DNA from: a virus
Reading direction: 5' to 3' (one strand)
Length of the DNA stretch: 50,487 bases
Virus record (IMG/VR): IMGVR_UViG_3300021585_000002
Span: 1 to 50,487 of that record
Notes under the pieces: model-generated
Told to the model about the DNA's origin: nothing
Databases searched by the model: none
The model's input: only the letters and a program-made list of their open reading frames with translations
In this document: one piece after another, positions 9,123-50,487 of the stretch
How positions within the stretch are numbered: the first letter of the stretch is position 1
How the letters are laid out: each line of letters opens with the position of its first letter
Program-made: the position numbers and the translations under genes

Positions 9123-10031
9123 ATGGCAATTTCACGTGCCCAACTACTGAAGGAACTCCTGCCCGGTCTGAACGCCCTGTTCGGCATGGAGTACAAGCGC
9201 TACGGCGAAGAGCACAAGGAGATCTACGAGACGGAGACCTCCGAGCGTTCGTTCGAAGAAGAAACCAAGCTCTCTGGTTTCTCCGCAGCCCCGGTGAAGA
9301 ACGAAGGTTCAGCAATCCAGTACGACAACGCACAGGAAGCCTGGACCGCTCGTTACAACCACGAGACCATCGCTATGGGTTTCTCCATCACCGAAGAGGC
9401 GATGGAAGACAATCTGTACGACAGCCTGTCTGCTCGGTACACCAAGGGTCTGGCTCGCGCCATGGCCTACACCAAGCAGGTTAAGGCCGCTGCGATCCTG
9501 AACAACGGTTTCTCCAGCGCTGTTACCTACGGCGACGGGCAAGCTCTGTTCTCGACCGCGCACCCGCTGGTCTCCGGTGGCACCAACAGCAACCGTCCCA
9601 CGACGAACGCTGACCTGAACGAAACGTCCCTCGAAGCGGCTGTGATCCAGATCGCTGGTTGGACGGATGAGCGTGGTCTGCTGATTGCTGCCAAGCCCCG
9701 CAAGCTGATTGTTCCTCCGAACCTCCAGTTCGTCGCAACCCGACTGCTGGAAACGTCGCTGCGTGTCGGTACTAACGATAACGACATCAACGCGCTGAAG
9801 AACAACGGCAGCATCCCGGAAGGCTACACGATCAACCACTTCTTGACCGACACCAATGCGTGGTTCCTGACCACGGATGTGCCTAACGGTCTGAAGCACT
9901 TCATTCGTGTGCCGCTGGCTACGTCGATGGACGCTGACTTTGATACCGGCAACAGCCGTTACAAGGCTCGTGAGCGTTATTCGTTCGGCGTGTCTGACCC
10001 GCTGGGCGCGTTCGGTTCTCCCGGCGCTTAA
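9123..10031 (+). CDS. Major capsid protein, Mu gpT-like
   Basis: The 302-residue protein has features of the Mu gpT-like coat family: an N-terminal helical arm, then YNHETIAMGFSITEEAMEDN (near 79-98), the segment YTKQVKAAAILNNGF and the loop GDGQALFSTAHPLVSGG (about 138-154), and a C-terminal domain ending in KARERYSFGVSDP. Members form HK97-fold shells. Codon choice is the most uniform in the window, as expected for the most abundant virion protein. An AAGGAG site precedes the ATG. A strong terminator follows, marking the end of the head transcript. Confidence 0.85.
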   Translation: MAISRAQLLKELLPGLNALFGMEYKRYGEEHKEIYETETSERSFEEETKLSGFSAAPVKNEGSAIQYDNAQEAWTARYNHETIAMGFSITEEAMEDNLYDSLSARYTKGLARAMAYTKQVKAAAILNNGFSSAVTYGDGQALFSTAHPLVSGGTNSNRPTTNADLNETSLEAAVIQIAGWTDERGLLIAAKPRKLIVPPNLQFVATRLLETSLRVGTNDNDINALKNNGSIPEGYTINHFLTDTNAWFLTTDVPNGLKHFIRVPLATSMDADFDTGNSRYKARERYSFGVSDPLGAFGSPGA

Positions 10032-15445: not shown

Positions 15446-16999
15446 GTGGCCGCTGCTTTTCAAAGTAATGCGTTTCAGAACAACGCATTCCAGGCAGATG
15501 CCGGTGGCGCAAACATTGATTTTGATGCCGCAGCAGGTCTGTTCACGTACAGTGGACAGAACGCAACTCTTGCTGCCGCCAGAAACCTAAACGCCGAAGC
15601 TGGCTCTTTTACTTACACTGGTCAGGCTGCCACACTCCAGGCAGCCAGATCGGTCAATGCTGAAGCAGGCTCGTTCTCGTACACGGGTCAGAACGCAACG
15701 CTTCAGGCAGCAAAATCCATCAATGCTGAAGCTGGCGCGTTCTCATACGCAGGCCAAGCTGCAACGCTCACAGCAACCCGCAGCATCAATGCAGAAGCGG
15801 GTTCTTTTGCATACACCGGGCAAGCCGCAACTCTACAAGCGGCACGCAATGTAAACGCTGAAGCGGGAACATTTGCATACACCGGCCAAGATGCTACGCT
15901 TACGGCGGCACGTAGTGTTAACGCTGAATCTGGTGCGTTTACATACACCGGTCAAGACGCCAGCCTTACAGCAACGCGGAGCCTTAACGCCGAAGCGGGT
16001 TCGTTTGCGTATACAGGCCAAGACGCAAATTTCACGGCCACACGCAGCCTCAATGCTGAAGTTGGCACCTTTGCCTACACAGGCCAAGACGCCGCCTTCA
16101 TCTATGTACAAGCCAAGGGACTTGATGCCCAGGCTGGGACATTTACATACACGGGCCAAGACGCCACATTGGCGCAGACCCGCAGCCTGAACGCTGAAGC
16201 AGGAACATTTAGCTACACAGGTCAGAACGCCACGCTTTCAGCGGGCCGTGTTGTAAACGCTGAGTCCGGAGCGTTCACATACACCGGCCAAGATGCAGCG
16301 TTTCTGCTCGGGCTAGTTATCAACGCGGAAGCTGGCTCCTTTGCCTACACGGGCCAGGACGCAAGTCTTGTAGCAAACCGTAGTGTCGATGCACAAGCCG
16401 GGACGTTCACCTACACCGGTCAAGATGCAACGCTACAGGCCGCCAAGAACCTCAACGCAGAGGCTGGCAGTTTTGCGTACACAGGTCAGGACGCCACGCT
16501 GCAGACTGATCGGGTCGTTAATGCGGAAGCTGGAGCGTTTACATATACAGGCCAGGATGCGTCGCTCATAGCATCGCGCAGCCTTAACGCCGAAGCCGGT
16601 ATTTTTGTTTACACCGGTCAAGACGCCGTTTTTAACGTCTCTCGGGTTGTCGATGCACAGCCTGGATCGTTTGACTATCTAGGCCAGCCTGCCACGTTCT
16701 CGCGCACGAACCAGATCAACGCCGAAGCAGGCGCGTTTGGTGAAGCCAATCCATATGTGGAACCAGGGTACGTTGACCCGTACTATTCCACCAACCTGAC
16801 AGCGGCGCTTGGCTATGGCAGGATGTTCAACGCTGAGGCCGGTGCCTTTGCGTATCTGGGTCAAGATGCAACTTTTATCAAAGCCTTCTTATTCCCTCCA
16901 GAAGAGGACGTAAAAGCAGGTGTTGTCTATGGCCCAGGCGGTATCTACACGGGCACTTACGCACCTGCAGGCAGAGCCATCTTTATATTTGACGACTAA
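15446..16999 (+). CDS. Virion protein built of about twenty 22-residue repeats
   Basis: The 517-residue protein starts with GTG after AGGAG. A short N-terminus with the repeated NAFQ unit (FQSNAFQNNAFQ) is followed from about residue 26 by roughly 20 copies of a 22-residue unit, consensus LNAEAGSFAYTGQDATLTAT then RS. The last copies are diverged and interrupted by an insert (VEPGYVDPYY). The C-terminal 35 residues (EDVKAGVVYGPGGIYTGTYA onward) differ and resemble C-terminal caps in phage proteins. The repeat has an aromatic/Gly/Gln core and would form a long beta structure, perhaps a solenoid fibre. The phage role is not shown; position suggests a tail fibre or surface protein. Confidence 0.65.
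   Translation: MAAAFQSNAFQNNAFQADAGGANIDFDAAAGLFTYSGQNATLAAARNLNAEAGSFTYTGQAATLQAARSVNAEAGSFSYTGQNATLQAAKSINAEAGAFSYAGQAATLTATRSINAEAGSFAYTGQAATLQAARNVNAEAGTFAYTGQDATLTAARSVNAESGAFTYTGQDASLTATRSLNAEAGSFAYTGQDANFTATRSLNAEVGTFAYTGQDAAFIYVQAKGLDAQAGTFTYTGQDATLAQTRSLNAEAGTFSYTGQNATLSAGRVVNAESGAFTYTGQDAAFLLGLVINAEAGSFAYTGQDASLVANRSVDAQAGTFTYTGQDATLQAAKNLNAEAGSFAYTGQDATLQTDRVVNAEAGAFTYTGQDASLIASRSLNAEAGIFVYTGQDAVFNVSRVVDAQPGSFDYLGQPATFSRTNQINAEAGAFGEANPYVEPGYVDPYYSTNLTAALGYGRMFNAEAGAFAYLGQDATFIKAFLFPPEEDVKAGVVYGPGGIYTGTYAPAGRAIFIFDD
15521..16889. repeat. About twenty 66-base coding repeats
   Basis: The DNA behind the 22-residue units. Amino acids are conserved but third codon positions differ widely between copies (for example GGCCAAGAT, GGTCAAGAC and GGTCAGGAC for Gly-Gln-Asp), so the units are old or under selection against recombination. 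Confidence 0.8.
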
Positions 17000-17301: not shown

Positions 17302-17553
17302 ATGGACGCTACGGTGTTGTGGAATCTCGTCTTGACGGTCCTGCTTGGCGCGGTGGCTTTCTTTATGTCAGCCAAGTTTAAGGAGCTTGATAGATTGTCT
17401 ATTTTGCTCAACCGGACAAGAGAAGAAATTGCCCGTGACCATATTACGAGGTCTGAGTTTCGGGCAGACATGAAAGAATTGCTGGAGCGTTTTGACAGGA
17501 TCGAAGCCAAGCTAGATACTCTGCGGAGCAAGCCAAATGCCGGTTCAGTCTGA
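17302..17553 (+). CDS. Small membrane-anchored coiled-coil protein
   Basis: The 83-residue protein has one N-terminal membrane segment (about 6-25, LWNLVLTVLLGAVAFFM) followed by a charged helix (about 28-75) with heptads, ending at the C-terminus LRSKPNAGSV. Such a topology occurs in small phage membrane proteins, including lysis accessories, but it is far from the lysis genes and no spanin motif is seen. The ATG is 7 bases after the previous stop; its end overlaps the next gene by 17 bases. Confidence 0.6.
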   Translation: MDATVLWNLVLTVLLGAVAFFMSAKFKELDRLSILLNRTREEIARDHITRSEFRADMKELLERFDRIEAKLDTLRSKPNAGSV

Positions 17554-17872
17554 AAAGCAGCGCAGGTTTATGTACGCTTCACTCGCAGGCAAGACTGATG
17601 TCCCGCCCAGCGTAGCGAAGAAGTTTGTTGGTCCCAAAGCACATGCCGAAGGAGGCACCGTGAAAAAAGAATCCCCCGCGATGATGAAGAAGGAAGTGGC
17701 CTTCATGAAGAAGAAGGGCGCTCCTAAGGCCATGATCAAGCATGAGATGGCTGAAGCCAAGACCAAGAAGATGTCAAGTGGCGGTTTTACCCGCGCAGCC
17801 GATGGCGTTGCGAAGCACGGCAAGACCCAAGGCAAGATGATCAAGATGGCAATGGGCGGCAAAGCCTGCTAA
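17537..17872 (+). CDS. Small basic Lys/Gly-rich protein
   Basis: The 111-residue protein opens VQSEKQRRFMYASLAGKTDV, a start typical of small conserved phage proteins, and is rich in Lys throughout, with an AEGGT element near 40 and a Lys/Met-rich C-terminus ending MGGKAC. It overlaps the previous gene by 17 bases. The C-terminal KHGKTQGKMIKMAMGGK resembles, in part, the tag found in the next three genes. A role in DNA compaction or as an injected protein is plausible but not shown. Confidence 0.65.
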   Translation: MPVQSEKQRRFMYASLAGKTDVPPSVAKKFVGPKAHAEGGTVKKESPAMMKKEVAFMKKKGAPKAMIKHEMAEAKTKKMSSGGFTRAADGVAKHGKTQGKMIKMAMGGKAC

Positions 17873-17881
17873 GGAGCAATC

Positions 17882-18091
17882 ATGGATTACGCAGCAGAAT
17901 CTAAGCGCGAAGTTGAGTCGCTGAAGAAGCGTCATCCCAAGAAGGGGATTGACCCAACGATTCCTGCCGGAATCCGTGAAATGCTTGTAGACAAGCAAAA
18001 GAGCGCTTTGACGCCAGATTCCAAGTACGCCAAGGGCGGCAAGATCGATGGCTGCGCCCAGCGCGGCAAGACTCGTGGGAAGGTGGTGTGA
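17882..18091 (+). CDS. Small basic protein with the shared C-terminal tag
   Basis: A 69-residue protein preceded by AAGGAG. The first 45 residues are charged and helical (MDYAAESKREVESLKKRHPK). The last 21 carry the tag AKGGKIDGCAQRGKTRGKVV, also found at the ends of the next two genes. The N-termini of these proteins are unrelated, so the tag is a module that probably targets the proteins to one place, such as the virion. Function is unknown. Confidence 0.7.
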   Translation: MDYAAESKREVESLKKRHPKKGIDPTIPAGIREMLVDKQKSALTPDSKYAKGGKIDGCAQRGKTRGKVV

Positions 18092-18092
18092 A

Positions 18093-18491
18093 ATGGTGCT
18101 GCCATTGATTGGAAAGGCGCTTGCTCAGGGCGCAACAAAATACGCCGCCAAGCAAGCTGCTAAACAAACTGCCAAAGAAACGGCAGAGGAAGCTGCTGAA
18201 CAAGCTGTTCCACAGGCTGCGAAAAAAGCCACACAATATTCGCCCGGTATGCCTGGGGCTCGCCGAACGGGTACGCGGGCAGCCAAGGACACAAAAGAAC
18301 CCACAGAATACACGCCAGAAATGTCTGGTCGTTTGCGTTATCGGCAGCCCAGAGAAGATGAGTTTTTTGAAACTCGCACTCCGCGCATGAGCGATGATTA
18401 CAAAAAGGGCGGTAACGTCAAAGGTTATGCAAAAGGCGGATCTATCGATGGATGCGCCAAGCGTGGGAAGACGAAAGGCAGGATCGTATGA
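18093..18491 (+). CDS. Ala/Lys-rich protein with the shared C-terminal tag
   Basis: The 132-residue protein starts at ATG 18093, after GGGAAGG, one base past the previous stop; a longer frame from 18048 lies inside the previous gene. Residues 10-48 form an Ala/Lys/Gln helix (KYAAKQAAKQTAKETAEEAA), like histone-type or DNA-binding tails. The middle is Arg/Pro-rich. The end carries the tag AKGGSIDGCAKRGKTKGRIV. The stop overlaps the next start (ATGA). Confidence 0.7.
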   Translation: MVLPLIGKALAQGATKYAAKQAAKQTAKETAEEAAEQAVPQAAKKATQYSPGMPGARRTGTRAAKDTKEPTEYTPEMSGRLRYRQPREDEFFETRTPRMSDDYKKGGNVKGYAKGGSIDGCAKRGKTKGRIV

Positions 18492-19363
18492 AGCGCCGTG
18501 TACGTAAATTTGCCGAAGGCGGCATGGAAGACTTTGAAGACAAAGCTCTTCCCAAGGCCAAGCCCCGTGATCTTGAGGACTTTGAAGACAAGGCCATGCC
18601 CAAGCGCTATTCGGCGCTTGATGCTCTTGCTTCGGGTGAAGAGAAGGGCAGCTTTGACCAAGATGTTTACGAGCGGGCAAAGCGCTTTGTAAACAAGCAA
18701 GCTGCAGCCCCAAAGGCTGCTGCCAAGGCTGCTCCTGCGCGTCCTGCTGCCCGTATGGATGCAGCGCCTGCCGGTCAGATCCCAGGGGCTGGCTCCTACA
18801 CTGCTCCGCCTTCTGATGGCAGCCGGAGCATGAGCGACACAGAGCGCAACATCCTGAACACGCTCGGTGGTGTTTCTGGGTTGTCAGGTCTGCGTATGGC
18901 TGCCCGTGGCGCACAAGCCGCTAAGCCAACTGGCCGCGCATTGGCAACCACCGAAACTCCTGTGACGTTCTTGGGCGCTTCTGGCCGTCGCAATGTCACG
19001 CCCGCTGAGCGGGTTGGTGTAAACAAGATGGACAGGCTTGAAGGCCCGAAGTCTGGTACGCCGGTCAAGGGTGGCGATAGCCCGAAGCAGTTGCCTCCTG
19101 CAAAAGCTAATGTGACTCGCCGTCGGATTGGTTCCGAGACGCCGTCTCCTGCCATTGCCAAGGGCCGTGCTGAAGCTATGGAGGCTAACAAGCCCATCAT
19201 GCAAGCCACGCCCAAGAAGAAGTCTCCTCGCTCTCGCACACGGGATGAGGACACGGACTACGAACTCCGCGCTCGTGGTGGCCGGGTTGGCTATGCCAAA
19301 GGTGGACAAGTACGTGGTGGCGGCTGTGAAATGCGCGGCAAAACTAAAGGCAGGATGGTGTAA
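18488..19363 (+). CDS. 291-residue protein with the shared C-terminal tag
   Basis: The start at ATG 18488 overlaps the previous stop (ATGA); a longer frame from 18452 lies inside the previous gene. The N-terminus has a doubled acidic unit (MEDFEDKALPKAKP then LEDFEDKAMPKR, residues 13-40) after FAEGG. The centre is Ala/Pro-rich and probably disordered, with one hydrophobic helix near 125-145 (NILNTLGGVSGLSGLRMAA). A basic C-terminal part leads to the tag AKGGQVRGGGCEMRGKTKGR, then MV. Composition resembles an injected or DNA-associated protein. Confidence 0.65.
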   Translation: MKRRVRKFAEGGMEDFEDKALPKAKPRDLEDFEDKAMPKRYSALDALASGEEKGSFDQDVYERAKRFVNKQAAAPKAAAKAAPARPAARMDAAPAGQIPGAGSYTAPPSDGSRSMSDTERNILNTLGGVSGLSGLRMAARGAQAAKPTGRALATTETPVTFLGASGRRNVTPAERVGVNKMDRLEGPKSGTPVKGGDSPKQLPPAKANVTRRRIGSETPSPAIAKGRAEAMEANKPIMQATPKKKSPRSRTRDEDTDYELRARGGRVGYAKGGQVRGGGCEMRGKTKGRMV

Positions 19364-19365
19364 AC

Positions 19366-19629
19366 ATGCGCCAAAGTCGTGGTATGGGTGCTATCCGCCC
19401 GGAACTTAAGAAGCGTCGTGACAATACGGACTTCCTCCAAGATGGAAAGCGTCATGCCCGCCGCGACAACACGGATTTCACCGAGTATGCCTCTGGCGGT
19501 CTCTACGAAAACATCTACGCAAAGCGTAAACGCATTGCCGCTGGATCAGGTGAAAAGATGCGTAAACCGGGTTCTCCCGGCGCTCCTACTGCCAAAGCCT
19601 TCAAGCGTTCCGCGTTGACAGCAAAGTAA
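19366..19629 (+). CDS. Small conserved phage protein, very basic
   Basis: The 87-residue protein begins MRQSRGMGAIRPE and has the motif RRDNTDF twice (about residues 17-23 and 32-38). It ends with a pattern I recognise from other phages: NIYAKRKRIAAGSGEKMRKP followed by GSPGAPTAKAF. It starts 2 bases after the previous stop and stops 3 bases before the adaptor gene. Its function is unknown; the strong positive charge suggests nucleic-acid or capsid-surface contact. Confidence 0.75.
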   Translation: MRQSRGMGAIRPELKKRRDNTDFLQDGKRHARRDNTDFTEYASGGLYENIYAKRKRIAAGSGEKMRKPGSPGAPTAKAFKRSALTAK

Positions 19630-20973: not shown

Positions 20974-21168
20974 ATGCTGCCGACCAAGAAGCTCGCCCCC
21001 GCTAAGCCGGGGCAACCTCAAGAGATCGAAACCCTCAAGGACGAGATCTGCATGGTGGTGGGCAACATCGCTATGGGCAAGCCTTCTGCTGCCAAAACCT
21101 CGGGCATCAAGATCCGTGGGACTGGCGCTGCCACCAAGGGCACGATGGCTAGGGGTCCGATGGCATGA
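20974..21168 (+). CDS. Small hypothetical protein
   Basis: A 64-residue basic protein, MLPTKKLAPAKPGQPQEIE, then a short helix and a Gly/Ala/Lys-rich end. It begins 4 bases after the previous stop and overlaps the next start by 4 (ATGA). No motif recognised. It belongs to the same run of small genes. Confidence 0.55.
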   Translation: MLPTKKLAPAKPGQPQEIETLKDEICMVVGNIAMGKPSAAKTSGIKIRGTGAATKGTMARGPMA

Positions 21169-43695: not shown

Positions 43696-46600
43696 ATGGC
43701 TATTCGCATCCAGCTTTTTGATGGGTCGCTTCTTGAGTTCCCTGATAACACCCCTCAGGATGTTATTGATCGAGTAGCCAAGCAAGAAACACTGGCCCGT
43801 CAGCCCGCTCCGCAACCTCGACCTGTCATTGAGCCCCCTAAGAAAGAGGGGGTGATGGCTGCGTTTGGCAAAGGGCTAGAAAGCCTGCTGGGCTCTAGCC
43901 GCACTGCCGTTGGTGCGTTTACAGGATCTCCTGAAGAAGCTGCCCTGGCTGCTCTGGAGAGGCAGAAGCAGTCTCCCTACGCCGACCAAGTCAGCTTAGA
44001 GAAGGTCTCAGAGGCTGCTAAACGAGGCCTGCTGCCCGCCGCTGGTGAGGTCGCTAGGCAGGTGCCTCTGGCTATTGCTGAGCAGGCTCCGAACGTCCTG
44101 GCAACACTTGGTTCTGCCAAGGCTGGCTCTTTGCTTGGCGCAAAGCTGGGGACGGCTGTCGCGCCTGGAGTTGGCACAGTAGTTGGAGGTATCGGCGGTG
44201 GCATCTTGGGAGCGCTTACCCCGTCTTTGCTCCAGCAGTTTGGCGGGAACATCCAGCGTCAAGCCCAAGAGCAGCAAGCTCAAGGCAAGCCCATCGACAT
44301 CAGCAGGACATCAGCAGGCTTGGCTGCTGTGCCCCAGGCAGGTCTTGATGTTGCCGCATCCCTAATCCCACTGGGCAGGACGTTTGCTGGCAAGGTTCTA
44401 GGCCCGCAAGTTGAAGAACTGTTGAAACGCGGGTCAGTTGAGGGCGCAGAGCGTTTAGCTCGTGAGAGCCTGCCCACTGTGTTGGGCAAGGGTGCTGCGA
44501 TCAGCATCGCTACTGAAGTCCCGACCGAAGTTATCCAGACCATGCTTGAGCGCTCTCAGGCTGGTCTTGCCCTGACCACCCCGGATGCTTTGGCTGAGTA
44601 TGGCAATGTGGCATACCAAGCTGGTCTACTTGCGCCTATTGGTGCTGTGGGTCGTGTGGGTGAGCGTGCTGCAGCGCGGAGTGAAGCTCTTCTGCCCGGT
44701 CAACGCCGTGGTGAGTCCGATATGGACTTCGCCAACCGGCTGAGTCAAGAGATCGGGAATGATCGTGCTTATGTTGCAATGCAGCAAGCAGAGCAGGCAG
44801 AAGCCGCTAAGCGTCAAGCTGCACTGGAGCAGATGAAACAGGCCATCGGTGATGGCTTGCTGACGCCCGAGGTGGTTAAACAGTGGGGCTTTGGGAAAGG
44901 CTCCATCTTTGATTCCCTGGTCAACAAGAACCTGAGCAATCCTGAGGATGCGTCCTTTGTGGCCGATGTCTTGGCCGCGTACCGGCCTAAGGCTCACCCC
45001 AATACGCAGGTCAAGATTGATGATGCGCTGGCTGGCATTGAAGCCATGTTTGGTGCCAAGCCAACCTCGCAAACTGAAGGAGCAGCAGATGTTGGAACGG
45101 CTATCACCGAACCAAGTGGAGCGGGCGTTCAAGTGGCTGGCGAGCCCAGTGCAGGAGCCACCACCCCAAGACTTGGAGCCCCTGAACCAGCAGGAGTGGT
45201 TCCTCCTGTCGAGGATGCTAGACAACCTGCTGGAGGAGCAGAAGCAGCACCGCCTGCAGTAGCTCCGCCTCTTGCGCTGCCTGCGCCTGTTGAGCCTGAA
45301 GTAGTTACTCCTGCCGCAGAAGCCGTCACGCCGCCAACAGAGCCGGTTGTTGAAACGCCTGCTGCTGAGAAGCCCGTTGAAGCGCCGGCTGCTCAGAAAC
45401 CTGCTGTTGAGTTGCCCAAGTCATTGCAGGATATGTCTCCTGCAAACAGGCAGTTGTATGAGCTTGATCGCAACATAGAAGAAGCGAAGACTCCTGCATC
45501 TGGTATTGACTGGGAAATCAAGGACACGCTTGCCCCAGAAGAGAGGGGCATGACATTTGAAAGCGCGACCGACCAGCTTAACTCGTACTTGGCTGGCATC
45601 AAAGATCTTGACGGTAAGCTACGCAGTGGCAACAGGACTGGCTCCACCCCAGGTCGTTTGATTGAGATGTGGAAAAACGCTTCGCAAACGCAGGCGTTTA
45701 TAGAGCAGCAGAAACAACAGAAACCCGAGCTTTGGGCGAACTATCAAGCTCGTCAAGCTGATGTTGCCAATCTCAAGGAGGGTGATGCAGTTATCACGCC
45801 CAATGGCGAACAAGCCATCCTTGATAAGAAGTTCCCAAAGAACTGGCGAGTTAAGCTCCCCAATGAAGAGATGCGGCTGTACCCGCCAACCAGCTTTAGA
45901 CGCGCAGAGCCTGCCGCTAAGCTATCGGCAGCACAGATCCCCAAGTACAAGATTGTTCAAACGCAAGTCGAGGGTTTGGACGGCAAGATCAAACGCGCCT
46001 GGAATGTTGTTGATGCCAAGGACGACTACATACAAGACACGTTTGATACGCGGGCAGAAGCTCAAGACTGGGTCCGTGGCGTAAAGGAAAGAGCAGCCAA
46101 GCCATCACTGGCTGAAGAAGCCAAGCCGCTGCCCATCACACCCGAGATACAGGAAAAGATTGATCAACTTGAGAAGGTTCTCAAGAAGATCATGAACAAG
46201 TACGGCCTGAAGGATGTTGCCCTCAAGCTGATCGACAACATGAAGGCAGAAGGCGAGTACGCACAGAGCGTGGTTCGTCTGGCCCTGGATGCTGTAAACC
46301 CGGTGCAGGCCTTGAGGCATGAGTCCATCCATGCTCTGAAGGAACTGGGCTTCTTCTCTCCACAACAATGGGCAGCACTTGAAAAGCAAGCCAAGAGCAA
46401 GTGGATTGATCAGTACCTTAAGACCAAGAACATCAACAAGGAAGACCTAGAGGAGGGCCAGAAGTCCCGCTATGACGCATACATGGAGCTTTACAAGGGC
46501 GACATGGACGCGATCATTGAAGAGGCAATTGCTGATGCCTTTGGGGACTTTGATGTAAACAAGGCTCCTCCGGGCCTGATGCAAGCCATCCTGACCCGGC

Positions 46601-49600
46601 TGCGTAACTTCTTTGATGCGGTCAAGACTGCCTTTGGTGGTGAAGTCACCGCAGAGCAAGTGTTCCGTAAGGTTGAGAAGGGTGCTCTGAAGGCGGAGGC
46701 TAAGGCAGAAGCTGCCCCGGCTAAACAAAGTTTGCGTGAAGTTCCTCTGTCCACTCGTGGGTTGATGGAAGTTCAGCCCATCGTAGCGATGCAGGAGCTT
46801 GGGCTCAAAACAGATGCTGTCCGCAAGCCGGGTGGCATTGAGTTGTTTAACGATGTCCGCTCCATCGCTCTTGCACTTAATCAAGACACCATCCGAAACA
46901 AGGGCAAGATCGCCAAGACCGATACCTCATTGACCTCGGAAAAAGAACTTGCGAGGGCAATGGTTGATGAGATTGGCTACCAGCTAAAAGCAACTGCAGG
47001 GACCGGCACTGGCAAAGGTTGGTACTCGGACAACTATCCCAAGGCAGTTAAGAAGCTGGGCAAGCTGTTCCCAGAGCTTGAGACAGATCCATATGCCAGA
47101 ACTGTTTTCTCTGCATTGGTTGCTATTACCTCCAATGGCGAGAAAGTATCTCTCAACGTAAAGAACGCCATTAAGCTCTACGAAGACATTCGTATGGGCA
47201 AAGACCCGCGTAATATTGGTTCTCGCCGCAAAACTGCACTGGATAATAACATTGCAGTTGTCATGCAGCTAATGAAGCAATATGGTCCCACTGGAATGCG
47301 CAATGAATTATTGCGTGAGATTACAGTTAAGGACATGAACGCTATCCTGCGTTCACGCGGAGAAAAGCCCGATACCTCTTATCTTGCGGATACCAAAGTA
47401 CCTGCTGCGGCATTGTATTTCGGGCCAAAGCTAGGCGCATTCTTCTCCAATCTTGAAGGCGCAGAGGGCTATCTGACGATGGATATGTGGTGGACCCGGA
47501 CGGTTAACCGCATGCGTGGGCAGTTGGAATCAAAGGCCACCGAAGCGTCCATCAAGAAGTTTGCCGCGATGATGGATAAGCCAAATGCCACCCGAGATGA
47601 GGTGGTGGCGGCAACCATCCCGCTGCGTAACAAATATGAAGAGTTTGGCTGGCACACTGAACTAGAAGAGTTAGTGGGCCGCAAAGAGCCAGCAGAAGAT
47701 AAGGACAAGCCAGCCTGGACGGCAAGGGCGAAGCGTCAAGCTGGCCCCGCATATGAAGCTCTCTTGTTTGAACATCGTCTTGAGAAGATGGCTAACACCA
47801 TCTACAAGAACGAGTATGAGTTGCTGGAAGAGGCTCCGTTTACATCCACCGACCGAGAGTTCATGTACCGCACGGCTAGGCGGACTCAGAGCCTGCTCAA
47901 GGCCGAAGGCATTAACCTGTCACTAGCAGACATCCAGGCCGCTCTCTGGTACTACGAGAAGCGTCTGTATCAACATTTGAGTGGAAGGAAAGCAGATGAC
48001 ATCGGATACGACGAAGCCATCACCCAACTCGCAGGGGAAAGTACTCGACCCGCAGGACCCTCTGTGGTCTTCGCTGGACAACCTGTTTCTGGGGCTGGAG
48101 CCACAGGAGCGGGCGCAGCAGTTGCTGGAGTTAGTGCGCAGCCTGTCCAGCTAAAGCCAAGCCTGCGTGAAAAAGCATCCTGGGATGACAAGCGCATTGA
48201 GCGTTTAATTGATCAATACGGCTACACCGATGGGCGTACCTACGGTATTGCTGCGTATGTAAACCCGGAAGAGTTTGTCCGCGCAACCACTCCGTCCAAA
48301 GAGTTTGCCGATGAACTCAAGGCAGAGGCTGGGGCACTTGACCGCGATCAGATAGCCAAAGAAACTCAAACGCCATTCTTGGAATGGGACATTGAGAAGG
48401 GCGTCATCGTTGGTCATGAAGGCAGGCATCGTATGTCTGCGCTTTCTGCTGAAGGTGTTGAGTCTGCCCCGGTCGTGCTGTACGTCAAGGATCGGTATGG
48501 CTCTAAAAAGCCGGATCAGTATGAGCGCCAGGATTCTGTATCCATCAAGGGGCAGAAATTCCAAGACGGTGTTGGCAGACCTCTGACGGCCACCAACCTG
48601 ATTCCACTTGAGTACAGGCAGGCCAAGTCACTGAGAGAAGAATTTGCCGCAGCGGCTGGTGTTAAGTACAGCCTGCGCGTAAACATCCCGGCAAGCGCAC
48701 GCGCACGGGTTGTTGCCACTATTGCCTCCCGTCAAGAGAAGGGCTTTGTTGAGCGCCTCATGGAGGCGATCTCTCCAACGTCCTACTCCGACTTCCGTGC
48801 CCAGGCTCTGAACCGCTACAACCAGCTTGGTGTTTACGACAAGATCCGCGCCAAGAAGATGGGTGGTGCTGCGCTGCTTGCTGATTCCAGCGCTGAGTCT
48901 GCTGCCCTGCTGTCTGACCTGGGTGCTGGTCTAACCGCTTCCGCGCTGGGTGTGCATGACCGGATGGGTGGCATTCCTGTGTTCAGGAACGGTATCACCA
49001 TCATCAGCAACCAAAACGGCACGATCAAAGGCCCGACCGCGATCTTTGCCCCGTTGGCTGCTGATCCGGCTCATTATCAGGACTATCAGTTCTGGGCTGG
49101 CGTGAAGCGTGGTTCGCGCTACATGCAAAACCCACAAGGCAAGTACGAAGAGAAACTGTTTACACCATCAGACGTCAAAGAGGCGGAAGTAATTCGCAAG
49201 GCATACCTCAAGGCGGGGATTGACTTTGAGGCCATGCAAAAGGAGTGGATCAAGTACAACGACGGTCTCGTCCAGTACATGGTCGATACCGGCGTGCTCT
49301 CACAGGAGCGTGCTGACCTGTACCGTAAACACGCAGACTATCTGCCCTTCTATCGGCAGATGGACGGCAGAGAGACCATTGGCCCGAAGGTTTTCCAAGC
49401 CATCTCTGGTGTCAAGCCGCCTAAAGCCGCTAAGGGTGGAGAGGCCCTGCTTGATGACTTTTTAGAAAACATTGTCCGCAACACTCAGTCTGCGATCCAG
49501 GCTGGCGTCAAGAATGTCGCAGCCCAAAGAGCCGCCAAGGTGGCTATGGACATCGGCATGGCATCGCGGCTGGGCTTCAAGTCCTCCGCAGCCGGAACCT

Positions 49601-50487
49601 TTGATGTTCTGGAGAACGGTCAGGTTGTCACGTACCAATCAAAGGATGAGCTTTTCATCAACGCCATCAAGAGCCTTGGTATTCCTGACCTGCCGTTTAT
49701 AGGACTGTTGTCTGGCCCCGCGAACTTGCTTCGCAATCTGGTAACCAAAGACCCAGGCTTCATGCTTGCCAACCTGATGCGTGACTCAATGTCCGCATGG
49801 GTTACCTCCGGCGTGAAGATGACCCCGATGGTAAACACCTTCACCAACTTTGGTGCTGCTATCGCAGGCAAAGACCCGGCCTTCCAAGCTCTGATGAACG
49901 CAGGCATTTTGGGTGGCTATGAGTTCTCGCAGAACGTGGAGCAGAGCGGGCGTGAGTTCGGCAAGGCTCTGAGGAAGCAAGCCAAGATCAAGTCCACCGG
50001 GCTCAAGGGCGCAGCAGAGATGGGCGCTAAGCCGTTTACATCTCTGTGGGATGCGCTGGAGAAAGGTTCCACTGCATCTGACGCAGCCACTCGGATGGAG
50101 GTCTACAAGCGCACGCTGGCCGAGACCAACAACGAAGCAGAGGCTCTGTTTAGAGCGCTTGAGGTGATGAACTTCAACCGTAAAGGATCTTCTGCTGTCG
50201 TAAGAATTCTTACCGCTGCGGTGCCGTTCTTAAACGCACGCATGCAGGGCCTGGATGTTCTGTACCGCGCAGCTTCGGGGCAGATGAACGCTCGTGATGC
50301 AGCGCAGATCCAGAAGCAGTTCTTTGTGCGCGGCGCAATGATTGCATCCTTGTCTGCCGCTTACTGGCTGCTGACGCATGACGATGAGGAATACAAGAAG
50401 CAGGAGCAGGAGACAAGAGACAACTACTGGCTTCTTCCTTCGCTGGGCGTCAAGATCCCGATCCCCTTTGAAATCGGTGTGTTGTTC
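43696..50487 (+). CDS. Giant polyvalent-like protein, incomplete at the window end
   Basis: The open frame runs without stop for 2264 codons to the last base. It starts MAIRIQLFDGSLLEFPD, an N-terminal pattern of phage virion proteins. Residues about 105-235 are Ala/Gly-rich with hydrophobic stretches. A metallopeptidase-like site HESIH (875-879) is followed 63 residues later by EEAIADAF (942-949), a plausible third-ligand element. A second region near 1259-1275 (YLTMDMWWTRTVNRMRG) and the segment GHEGRHRMSAL (1573-1583) recall domains of phage polyvalent proteins; the latter may be ParB-like. The region 1756-2040, including ADLYRKHADYLPFYR (near 1876) and DPGFMLANLMRDSMSAW (2019-2035), resembles LPD38-type polyvalent-associated sequence. 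Polyvalent proteins are delivered with phage DNA to counter host defences. Domain names are from memory and need a profile search. Confidence 0.7.
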   Translation, partial: MAIRIQLFDGSLLEFPDNTPQDVIDRVAKQETLARQPAPQPRPVIEPPKKEGVMAAFGKGLESLLGSSRTAVGAFTGSPEEAALAALERQKQSPYADQVSLEKVSEAAKRGLLPAAGEVARQVPLAIAEQAPNVLATLGSAKAGSLLGAKLGTAVAPGVGTVVGGIGGGILGALTPSLLQQFGGNIQRQAQEQQAQGKPIDISRTSAGLAAVPQAGLDVAASLIPLGRTFAGKVLGPQVEELLKRGSVEGAERLARESLPTVLGKGAAISIATEVPTEVIQTMLERSQAGLALTTPDALAEYGNVAYQAGLLAPIGAVGRVGERAAARSEALLPGQRRGESDMDFANRLSQEIGNDRAYVAMQQAEQAEAAKRQAALEQMKQAIGDGLLTPEVVKQWGFGKGSIFDSLVNKNLSNPEDASFVADVLAAYRPKAHPNTQVKIDDALAGIEAMFGAKPTSQTEGAADVGTAITEPSGAGVQVAGEPSAGATTPRLGAPEPAGVVPPVEDARQPAGGAEAAPPAVAPPLALPAPVEPEVVTPAAEAVTPPTEPVVETPAAEKPVEAPAAQKPAVELPKSLQDMSPANRQLYELDRNIEEAKTPASGIDWEIKDTLAPEERGMTFESATDQLNSYLAGIKDLDGKLRSGNRTGSTPGRLIEMWKNASQTQAFIEQQKQQKPELWANYQARQADVANLKEGDAVITPNGEQAILDKKFPKNWRVKLPNEEMRLYPPTSFRRAEPAAKLSAAQIPKYKIVQTQVEGLDGKIKRAWNVVDAKDDYIQDTFDTRAEAQDWVRGVKERAAKPSLAEEAKPLPITPEIQEKIDQLEKVLKKIMNKYGLKDVALKLIDNMKAEGEYAQSVVRLALDAVNPVQALRHESIHALKELGFFSPQQWAALEKQAKSKWIDQYLKTKNINKEDLEEGQKSRYDAYMELYKGDMDAIIEEAIADAFGDFDVNKAPPGLMQAILTRLRNFFDAVKTAFGGEVTAEQVFRKVEKGALKAEAKAEAAPAKQSLREVPLSTRGLMEVQPIVAMQELGLKTDAVRKPGGIELFNDVRSIALALNQDTIRNKGKIAKTDTSLTSEKELARAMVDEIGYQLKATAGTGTGKGWYSDNYPKAVKKLGKLFPELETDPYARTVFSALVAITSNGEKVSLNVKNAIKLYEDIRMGKDPRNIGSRRKTALDNNIAVVMQLMKQYGPTGMRNELLREITVKDMNAILRSRGEKPDTSYLADTKVPAAALYFGPKLGAFFSNLEGAEGYLTMDMWWTRTVNRMRGQLESKATEASIKKFAAMMDKPNATRDEVVAATIPLRNKYEEFGWHTELEELVGRKEPAEDKDKPAWTARAKRQAGPAYEALLFEHRLEKMANTIYKNEYELLEEAPFTSTDREFMYRTARRTQSLLKAEGINLSLADIQAALWYYEKRLYQHLSGRKADDIGYDEAITQLAGESTRPAGPSVVFAGQPVSGAGATGAGAAVAGVSAQPVQLKPSLREKASWDDKRIERLIDQYGYTDGRTYGIAAYVNPEEFVRATTPSKEFADELKAEAGALDRDQIAKETQTPFLEWDIEKGVIVGHEGRHRMSALSAEGVESAPVVLYVKDRYGSKKPDQYERQDSVSIKGQKFQDGVGRPLTATNLIPLEYRQAKSLREEFAAAAGVKYSLRVNIPASARARVVATIASRQEKGFVERLMEAISPTSYSDFRAQALNRYNQLGVYDKIRAKKMGGAALLADSSAESAALLSDLGAGLTASALGVHDRMGGIPVFRNGITIISNQNGTIKGPTAIFAPLAADPAHYQDYQFWAGVKRGSRYMQNPQGKYEEKLFTPSDVKEAEVIRKAYLKAGIDFEAMQKEWIKYNDGLVQYMVDTGVLSQERADLYRKHADYLPFYRQMDGRETIGPKVFQAISGVKPPKAAKGGEALLDDFLENIVRNTQSAIQAGVKNVAAQRAAKVAMDIGMASRLGFKSSAAGTFDVLENGQVVTYQSKDELFINAIKSLGIPDLPFIGLLSGPANLLRNLVTKDPGFMLANLMRDSMSAWVTSGVKMTPMVNTFTNFGAAIAGKDPAFQALMNAGILGGYEFSQNVEQSGREFGKALRKQAKIKSTGLKGAAEMGAKPFTSLWDALEKGSTASDAATRMEVYKRTLAETNNEAEALFRALEVMNFNRKGSSAVVRILTAAVPFLNARMQGLDVLYRAASGQMNARDAAQIQKQFFVRGAMIASLSAAYWLLTHDDEEYKKQEQETRDNYWLLPSLGVKIPIPFEIGVLF

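Follow-up and report, generated by a model that had tools for sequence, protein, structure and literature searches.

The window, the whole 50,487-nt record analysed here, carries on its + strand genes for a terminase, a portal protein, a major capsid protein, a series of small proteins, an SU10-type portal adaptor and tail proteins. Farther along the same strand are a DNA-ejection-like protein and, at the contig end, a protein that is 2,264 aa long or longer. This last protein is encoded by an open-ended ORF (43696-50487) with a weak LPD38 match, and has the character of a large polyvalent protein adjoining ejection-type genes. The nearest terminases to that of the window belong to phages 023Pt_psg01 and DSL-LC04, and to Pelagibacter phages HTVC027P and HTVC023P. 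The major capsid gene (9123..10031, + strand) was assigned through matches to PHROG major head families and serves below as the marker of a phage clade.

The stretch from the capsid gene to the adaptor holds the small genes of interest, all on the + strand. A DUF6321 gene (PF19846, 17040..17294) ends in LRAWNC. It is followed by a gene of the KQRRFM family (111 aa, 17537..17872) and by three genes which we call tagA (69 aa, 17882..18091), tagB (132 aa, 18093..18491) and tagC (291 aa, 18488..19363). The tagB start comes immediately past the tagA stop, and tagB and tagC overlap in ATGA. The portal adaptor (PF24175, 19633..20328, + strand) forms the downstream edge of this cassette. Ahead of the DUF6321 gene, a 517-aa protein (15446-16999) consists of ~22-residue repeats (NAEAGSFAYTGQDATLxAxRS) encoded by 66-bp tandem repeats, and is possibly a tail or fibre protein.

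A shared C-terminal tag

TagA, TagB and TagC differ in their N-terminal parts. That of TagA is variable and belongs to a family with 13 members in the set of tagged proteins, that of TagB is rich in Ala and Lys, and TagC begins with MKRRVRKFAEGG. All three end in a 20-residue tag with the stop codon directly after it: AKGGKIDGCAQRGKTRGKVV in TagA (18029-18088, +), AKGGSIDGCAKRGKTKGRIV in TagB (18429-18488, +) and GGQVRGGGCEMRGKTKGRMV in TagC (19301-19360, +). The endings share the form ..GG(x)n-[DG]GC[AE]x-RGKT-[KR]G-[KR]-x-V-COOH, and relatives of TagC carry the same tag or a variant, RGGGCESRGLRKCKVV. The DNA pattern for RGKT[KR]G[KR] occurs three times in the window, against a mean of 0.03 in 100 shuffles, none of which reached three, bearing out the original prediction that three consecutive genes carry one C-terminal tag. 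Identity at codon positions 1, 2 and 3 was 0.80, 0.85 and 0.40 for tags A and B, 0.65, 0.45 and 0.40 for A and C, and 0.80, 0.55 and 0.35 for B and C. Because third positions are just 35-40% identical and first and second positions are mostly better kept, the DNA of the tags has diverged while the protein is conserved, again as predicted. The KQRRFM-family protein had been thought to end in a partial tag; it in fact carries a complete, longer form, DGVAKHGKTQGKMIKMAMGGKAC, whose core (from ~17801) lies 12 residues ahead of the C-terminus, and this long form recurs in relatives. The DUF6321 protein of the window carries no tag.

Two pattern scans of viral contigs returned at least 120 matches each, and environmental phages carry the tag widely. 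Its position was measured in the second scan, in which a stop codon was not required, as it had been in the first. Exactly three residues followed the core in 113 of the 179 copies among the matches listed, so that the C-terminal position is conserved in relatives. In nearly all other listed copies, 10-47 residues followed the core (10-30 in most), frequently ending in GGKxC. In a third type, a small protein has the core close to its N-terminus (MAFxKxADGIAxxGKTKGKNLGDSGP..). The copies give the consensus S-[KS]-R-A-D-G-[CI]-A-x-[RK]-G-K-T-[KR]-G-[RK]-M-V, in which Gly and Thr are fully invariant, in part as an effect of the search pattern. A conserved Cys had been proposed, but among the C-terminal copies listed, from a scan not selecting that residue, Ile was commoner (Ile 68, Cys 39, Val 4, Leu 2). 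The last 20 residues carry a net charge of ~+5. In AlphaFold models, the tag has a pLDDT of ~30 behind a better-ordered DUF6321 domain, as would be expected of a linear motif.

The tag matched no catalogued family: searches with the tag peptides gave no match in PHROG (to E 10) or in the PDB, and Pfam gave none above cut-off for the tagged proteins of the window or for representative tagged proteins. Among the papers searched, none relevant to the motif, to DUF6321 or to the named phages was found, and none described the tag.

Distribution and link to a capsid clade

Among the loci listed, there were 382 C-terminally tagged ORFs, 362 of them distinct. The 84,980 bacterial and archaeal genomes contained three loci, all in MAGs, suggesting that tag-bearing phages are rarely prophages. 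Among named phages, the tag was found in one virus only, deposited as Pag-Yong1, MinM2 and Pra-JY27 (identical lengths); in Pag-Yong1, it is on a single gene a short distance upstream of the portal adaptor. Records OL906435.1, OQ594354.1 and PP438419.1, deposited for three different cyanobacterial hosts, have equal length (65,014) and a terminase match, and are thus probably one virus, which makes the stated hosts doubtful. A tblastn search of 50,697 phage records with the tag alone gave no match; in a control, tags this short were missed unless their flanks were near-identical, and tagged named phages may therefore be more numerous. The marine form RGGGxAx[RK]GxxF, used as a DNA pattern, matched no viral contig, and the sibling form RGAGIAxxGVRPCKM was absent from the named phages searched.

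The genomic setting of the tagged genes is narrow. Among the loci listed, they share the strand of the portal adaptor in 313 of 313 cases, and lie upstream of it in 308 of 313, and downstream of the major capsid gene in 182 of 182. The adaptor was present in all 117 tagged loci with at least 3 kb of downstream sequence, and the capsid gene in all 38 with at least 6 kb upstream, the capsid protein being at least 73% identical to that of the window. Within each of 20 whole records, the core pattern formed one cluster of up to ~2 kb, and a reversed control pattern gave one match in each of two records.

To relate the tag to the capsid, loci were picked by capsid protein alone, and a complete capsid-to-adaptor interval was required. 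The strict C-terminal tag was found in 26 of 40 loci with capsids at least 80% identical to that of the window, against 1 of 91 from the two nearest clades (60-70% identical; Fisher p = 3e-16, a value that overstates independence because loci within one clade are kin). A further six of the 40 carried the inner form. With a generalised ending, the counts were 30/40 and 1/91, and 0/956 for upstream control ORFs. The tag is not obligatory, since 14 of the 40 clade members lack the strict and 10 the generalised C-terminal form (some of these with the inner form). Among the members that lack the GKT form, some end in a sibling sequence of the same register, for example RGAGIATQGVRPCKMV. The clade pattern fits inheritance of the tag together with one type of capsid or connector, whether for reasons of function or through plain common descent. 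One locus (L384, 5677) belongs to a DSL-LC04-type phage whose capsid is 64% identical to that of the window; it has one tag, RRGDGIAIRGRTKGKLY, beside DUF6321-like genes, possibly a transfer between clades. Cyanophage Pam1 has a similar capsid-adaptor order, with only a cement gene between the two and no tag.

Modularity of the tagged proteins

The 362 distinct tagged proteins among the matches listed fell by blastp into ~167 N-terminal families, 129 of them singletons, a count inflated by low-complexity sequence; this turnover of cargo stands against an adaptor and a capsid protein that are each conserved. Most N-terminal parts are of low complexity, with much Ala, Lys and Gly and a basic character (median charge +4), and no known domains were found in them. 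A membrane anchor role was unsupported (7 of 338 passed the hydrophobicity cut), and an ADP-ribosyltransferase-like domain considered for one tagged family (L091, L264) was dropped, as Pfam and PDB gave nothing usable and the AlphaFold pLDDT was 45. Of the 35 families with three or more members, 18 include at least one protein without a C-terminal tag, some of these being long-form tags or wrong-frame matches.

DUF6321 offers a test independent of selecting the tag in that gene. In most phages the protein ends at LRAWNC, and in ~18 phages the tag follows that C-terminus. Extensions past LRAWNC or LRAWKC contained the tag in all cases seen except one (L079). What looked like a tagged DUF6321 in Pelagibacter phage HTVC115P was only read-through into the next gene. 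The domain occurs in 549 phage records, mainly of cyanophages and pelagiphages, and in PHROGs it forms the C-terminal part of much longer proteins. An EF-hand-like N-terminus likewise continues into the tag in some proteins and, in others, into a different module, FIQKAIKKPGALRKxLG..LGQRARLAQTLKKMK (as in FIQKAIKKPGALRK..LGQRARLAQTLKKMK). At loci L054, L122, L230 and L240, the EF-hand-like N-terminus MAKFPDLTGDGKVTQADILKGRG precedes FIQKAIKKPGALRKxLG..KLGQRARLAQTLKKMK, a swappable module able to replace the tag. In the phages examined, the tag is thus real, C-terminal, modular, conserved as protein, bound to a lineage and confined to the cassette.

Possible function of the tag

We tentatively propose, with slightly less than even confidence, that the tag is a docking peptide at the C-terminus, through which variable proteins are brought to the head or connector during assembly. 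In a clade of podovirus-like environmental phages, the capsid-adaptor cassette encodes small proteins, mostly disordered and changing in kind, to which this short flexible peptide would be attached. The peptide would bind a conserved, putative partner in the assembling particle, which might be the capsid lining, the portal or adaptor, or an early DNA-protein core, and this one common address would load differing cargo proteins into or onto the virion. We infer the binding of a partner, its identity as a part of the virion, and the packaging of the tagged proteins. A docking or loading signal best explains a peptide that is flexible, fixed in position, swapped among unrelated proteins and found only in the head-connector cassette; the clade members without the tag, the alternative of common descent and the single tagged gene of one named phage count against it. 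Of the sorting or attachment signal originally suggested, the modular build, fixed position and restriction to the capsid-adaptor cassette fit virion assembly, and the part given to the Cys is not supported, Ile being commoner there.

Selection on the DNA itself is very improbable as the source of the tag, whether as a recombination linker for shuffling cargo genes or as the ribosome-binding site of the next gene. The final tag codons in the window, GGG-AAG-GTG (18080-18095), GGC-AGG-ATC (18476-18490) and GGC-AGG-ATG (19344-19368), do contain purine-rich sequence that is a possible ribosome-binding site for the following gene. Across relatives, the final Gly is encoded by GGA or GGG far more often than the tag's other Gly residues, the final Arg codons favour AGG or AGA, and the next start lies mostly -4 to +3 nt from the stop; the GGR preference is higher with a start nearby (216:98 vs 20:27, p=0.0008), consistent with a Shine-Dalgarno sequence. 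However, such a likely site covers the last few codons only and accounts for codon choice at the very end, not for the conserved peptide, and codon usage in the upstream DGCAxRGKT part is ordinary, so identity is not kept at the DNA level. Tag codon identity was 0.46 within one genome, 0.40 between genomes and 0.38 as expected from local codon usage; because tags in one genome barely exceed the expected likeness, recent gene conversion is unlikely. These results had already weakened an explanation at the DNA level. Plain descent, in which old tandem duplicates have N-termini that drifted beyond recognition and a C-terminus that is the remnant of an ancestral domain without a shared sorting role, is improbable, yet agrees with the adjacency and small size of the genes, with their low-complexity, fast-drifting N-termini, and with the inflation of the family counts. 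Against it, the tag occurs on DUF6321 and on the EF-hand-like domain, both of which align clearly with untagged relatives, which points to gain and loss on unrelated proteins, and the extreme C-terminal conservation would still want a reason.

A nucleic-acid-binding tail is unlikely, though less so than plain descent: the basic ending would coat or condense packaged DNA, or bind RNA, with no specific protein partner. The charge of the last 20 residues and the basic N-terminal parts would suit such a role, and lysines of T4 internal proteins touch the phosphate of packaged DNA (PMC3012670). Yet uncharged Gly, Ala and Thr and the exact distance from the C-terminus are kept beyond what charge needs, an invariance that is partly an effect of the search pattern. 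There is a small chance that the tag is instead read by a host or phage protease, for example as a C-terminal degron for ClpXP or as a site for the prohead protease, for the removal of assembly helpers. The MuA-type ClpX signal consists of a basic run and then a hydrophobic C-terminus, which the tag resembles, and the GG ahead of the tag could be a candidate cleavage site. Such a degron does not need the conserved DG[CI]A part, however, and no adjoining protease gene was identified.

The docking reading has two precedents. T4 internal proteins are diverse and fast-changing and share only a short capsid-targeting sequence (CTS), which also carries foreign proteins into the head (PMC3012670). 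The tag, too, pairs diverse cargo with one targeting sequence, as seen in its many families (subject to the low-complexity caveat) and in DUF6321 with and without it. However, the CTS of T4 is a propeptide located at the N-terminus and 10-20 residues long (PMC5694885), whereas most listed tags stand at the C-terminus; the CTS is removed by the prohead protease, and cleavage of the tag is not known. No sequence similarity was seen between the two, and loading, observed for the T4 CTS, is a prediction for the tag. Encapsulin cargo-loading peptides are short, usually C-terminal, occur on unrelated cargo encoded beside an HK97-type shell gene, and are sufficient for loading (PMC7355545). The tag likewise is a short terminal peptide on unrelated proteins encoded downstream of a capsid gene, here probably of HK97 type as judged from the PHROG head family matches. 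Encapsulins, however, are compartments rather than virions, and their peptide fits a hydrophobic luminal pocket, whereas the phage tag is basic and no sequence relation was seen. DUF6321 shares the cassette and in some phages directly precedes the tag, but is a separate conserved domain, tagless in many cyanophages and pelagiphages. By analogy, the tag is best explained as working like the T4 CTS and encapsulin cargo peptides while being a member of neither group.

In these bacterial viruses of lakes and fresh water, the shared ending looks like a reusable address label for particle loading. Somewhat doubtfully, it may belong to a C-terminal code for cargo loading that is general among tailed phages, with several sibling forms, for swapping proteins into the virion. 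The ending of that code might be R-x-x-G-[CI]-A-x-[RKQ]-G-x4-[KR]-M-V, an equally speculative C-terminal, uncleaved counterpart of the T4 CTS built like an encapsulin cargo peptide. To our knowledge, packaging signals of this kind are known in few model phages. If the docking reading is true, several hundred uncharacterised small proteins from an abundant group of environmental phages would be recognisable as virion cargo from sequence alone, the way in which such phages exchange virion proteins would be revealed, and a short peptide with which to load proteins of choice into phage heads would be at hand. An independent C-terminal signal would be directly comparable with the T4 and encapsulin precedents.

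Downstream of the adaptor, a further gene (20974..21168, + strand) ends in a different, similarly built C-terminal module, SGIKIRGTGAATKGTMARGPMA, with the core G-x-A-x-[KR]-G followed by 8 residues. This second conserved module is near-identical in dozens of relatives.
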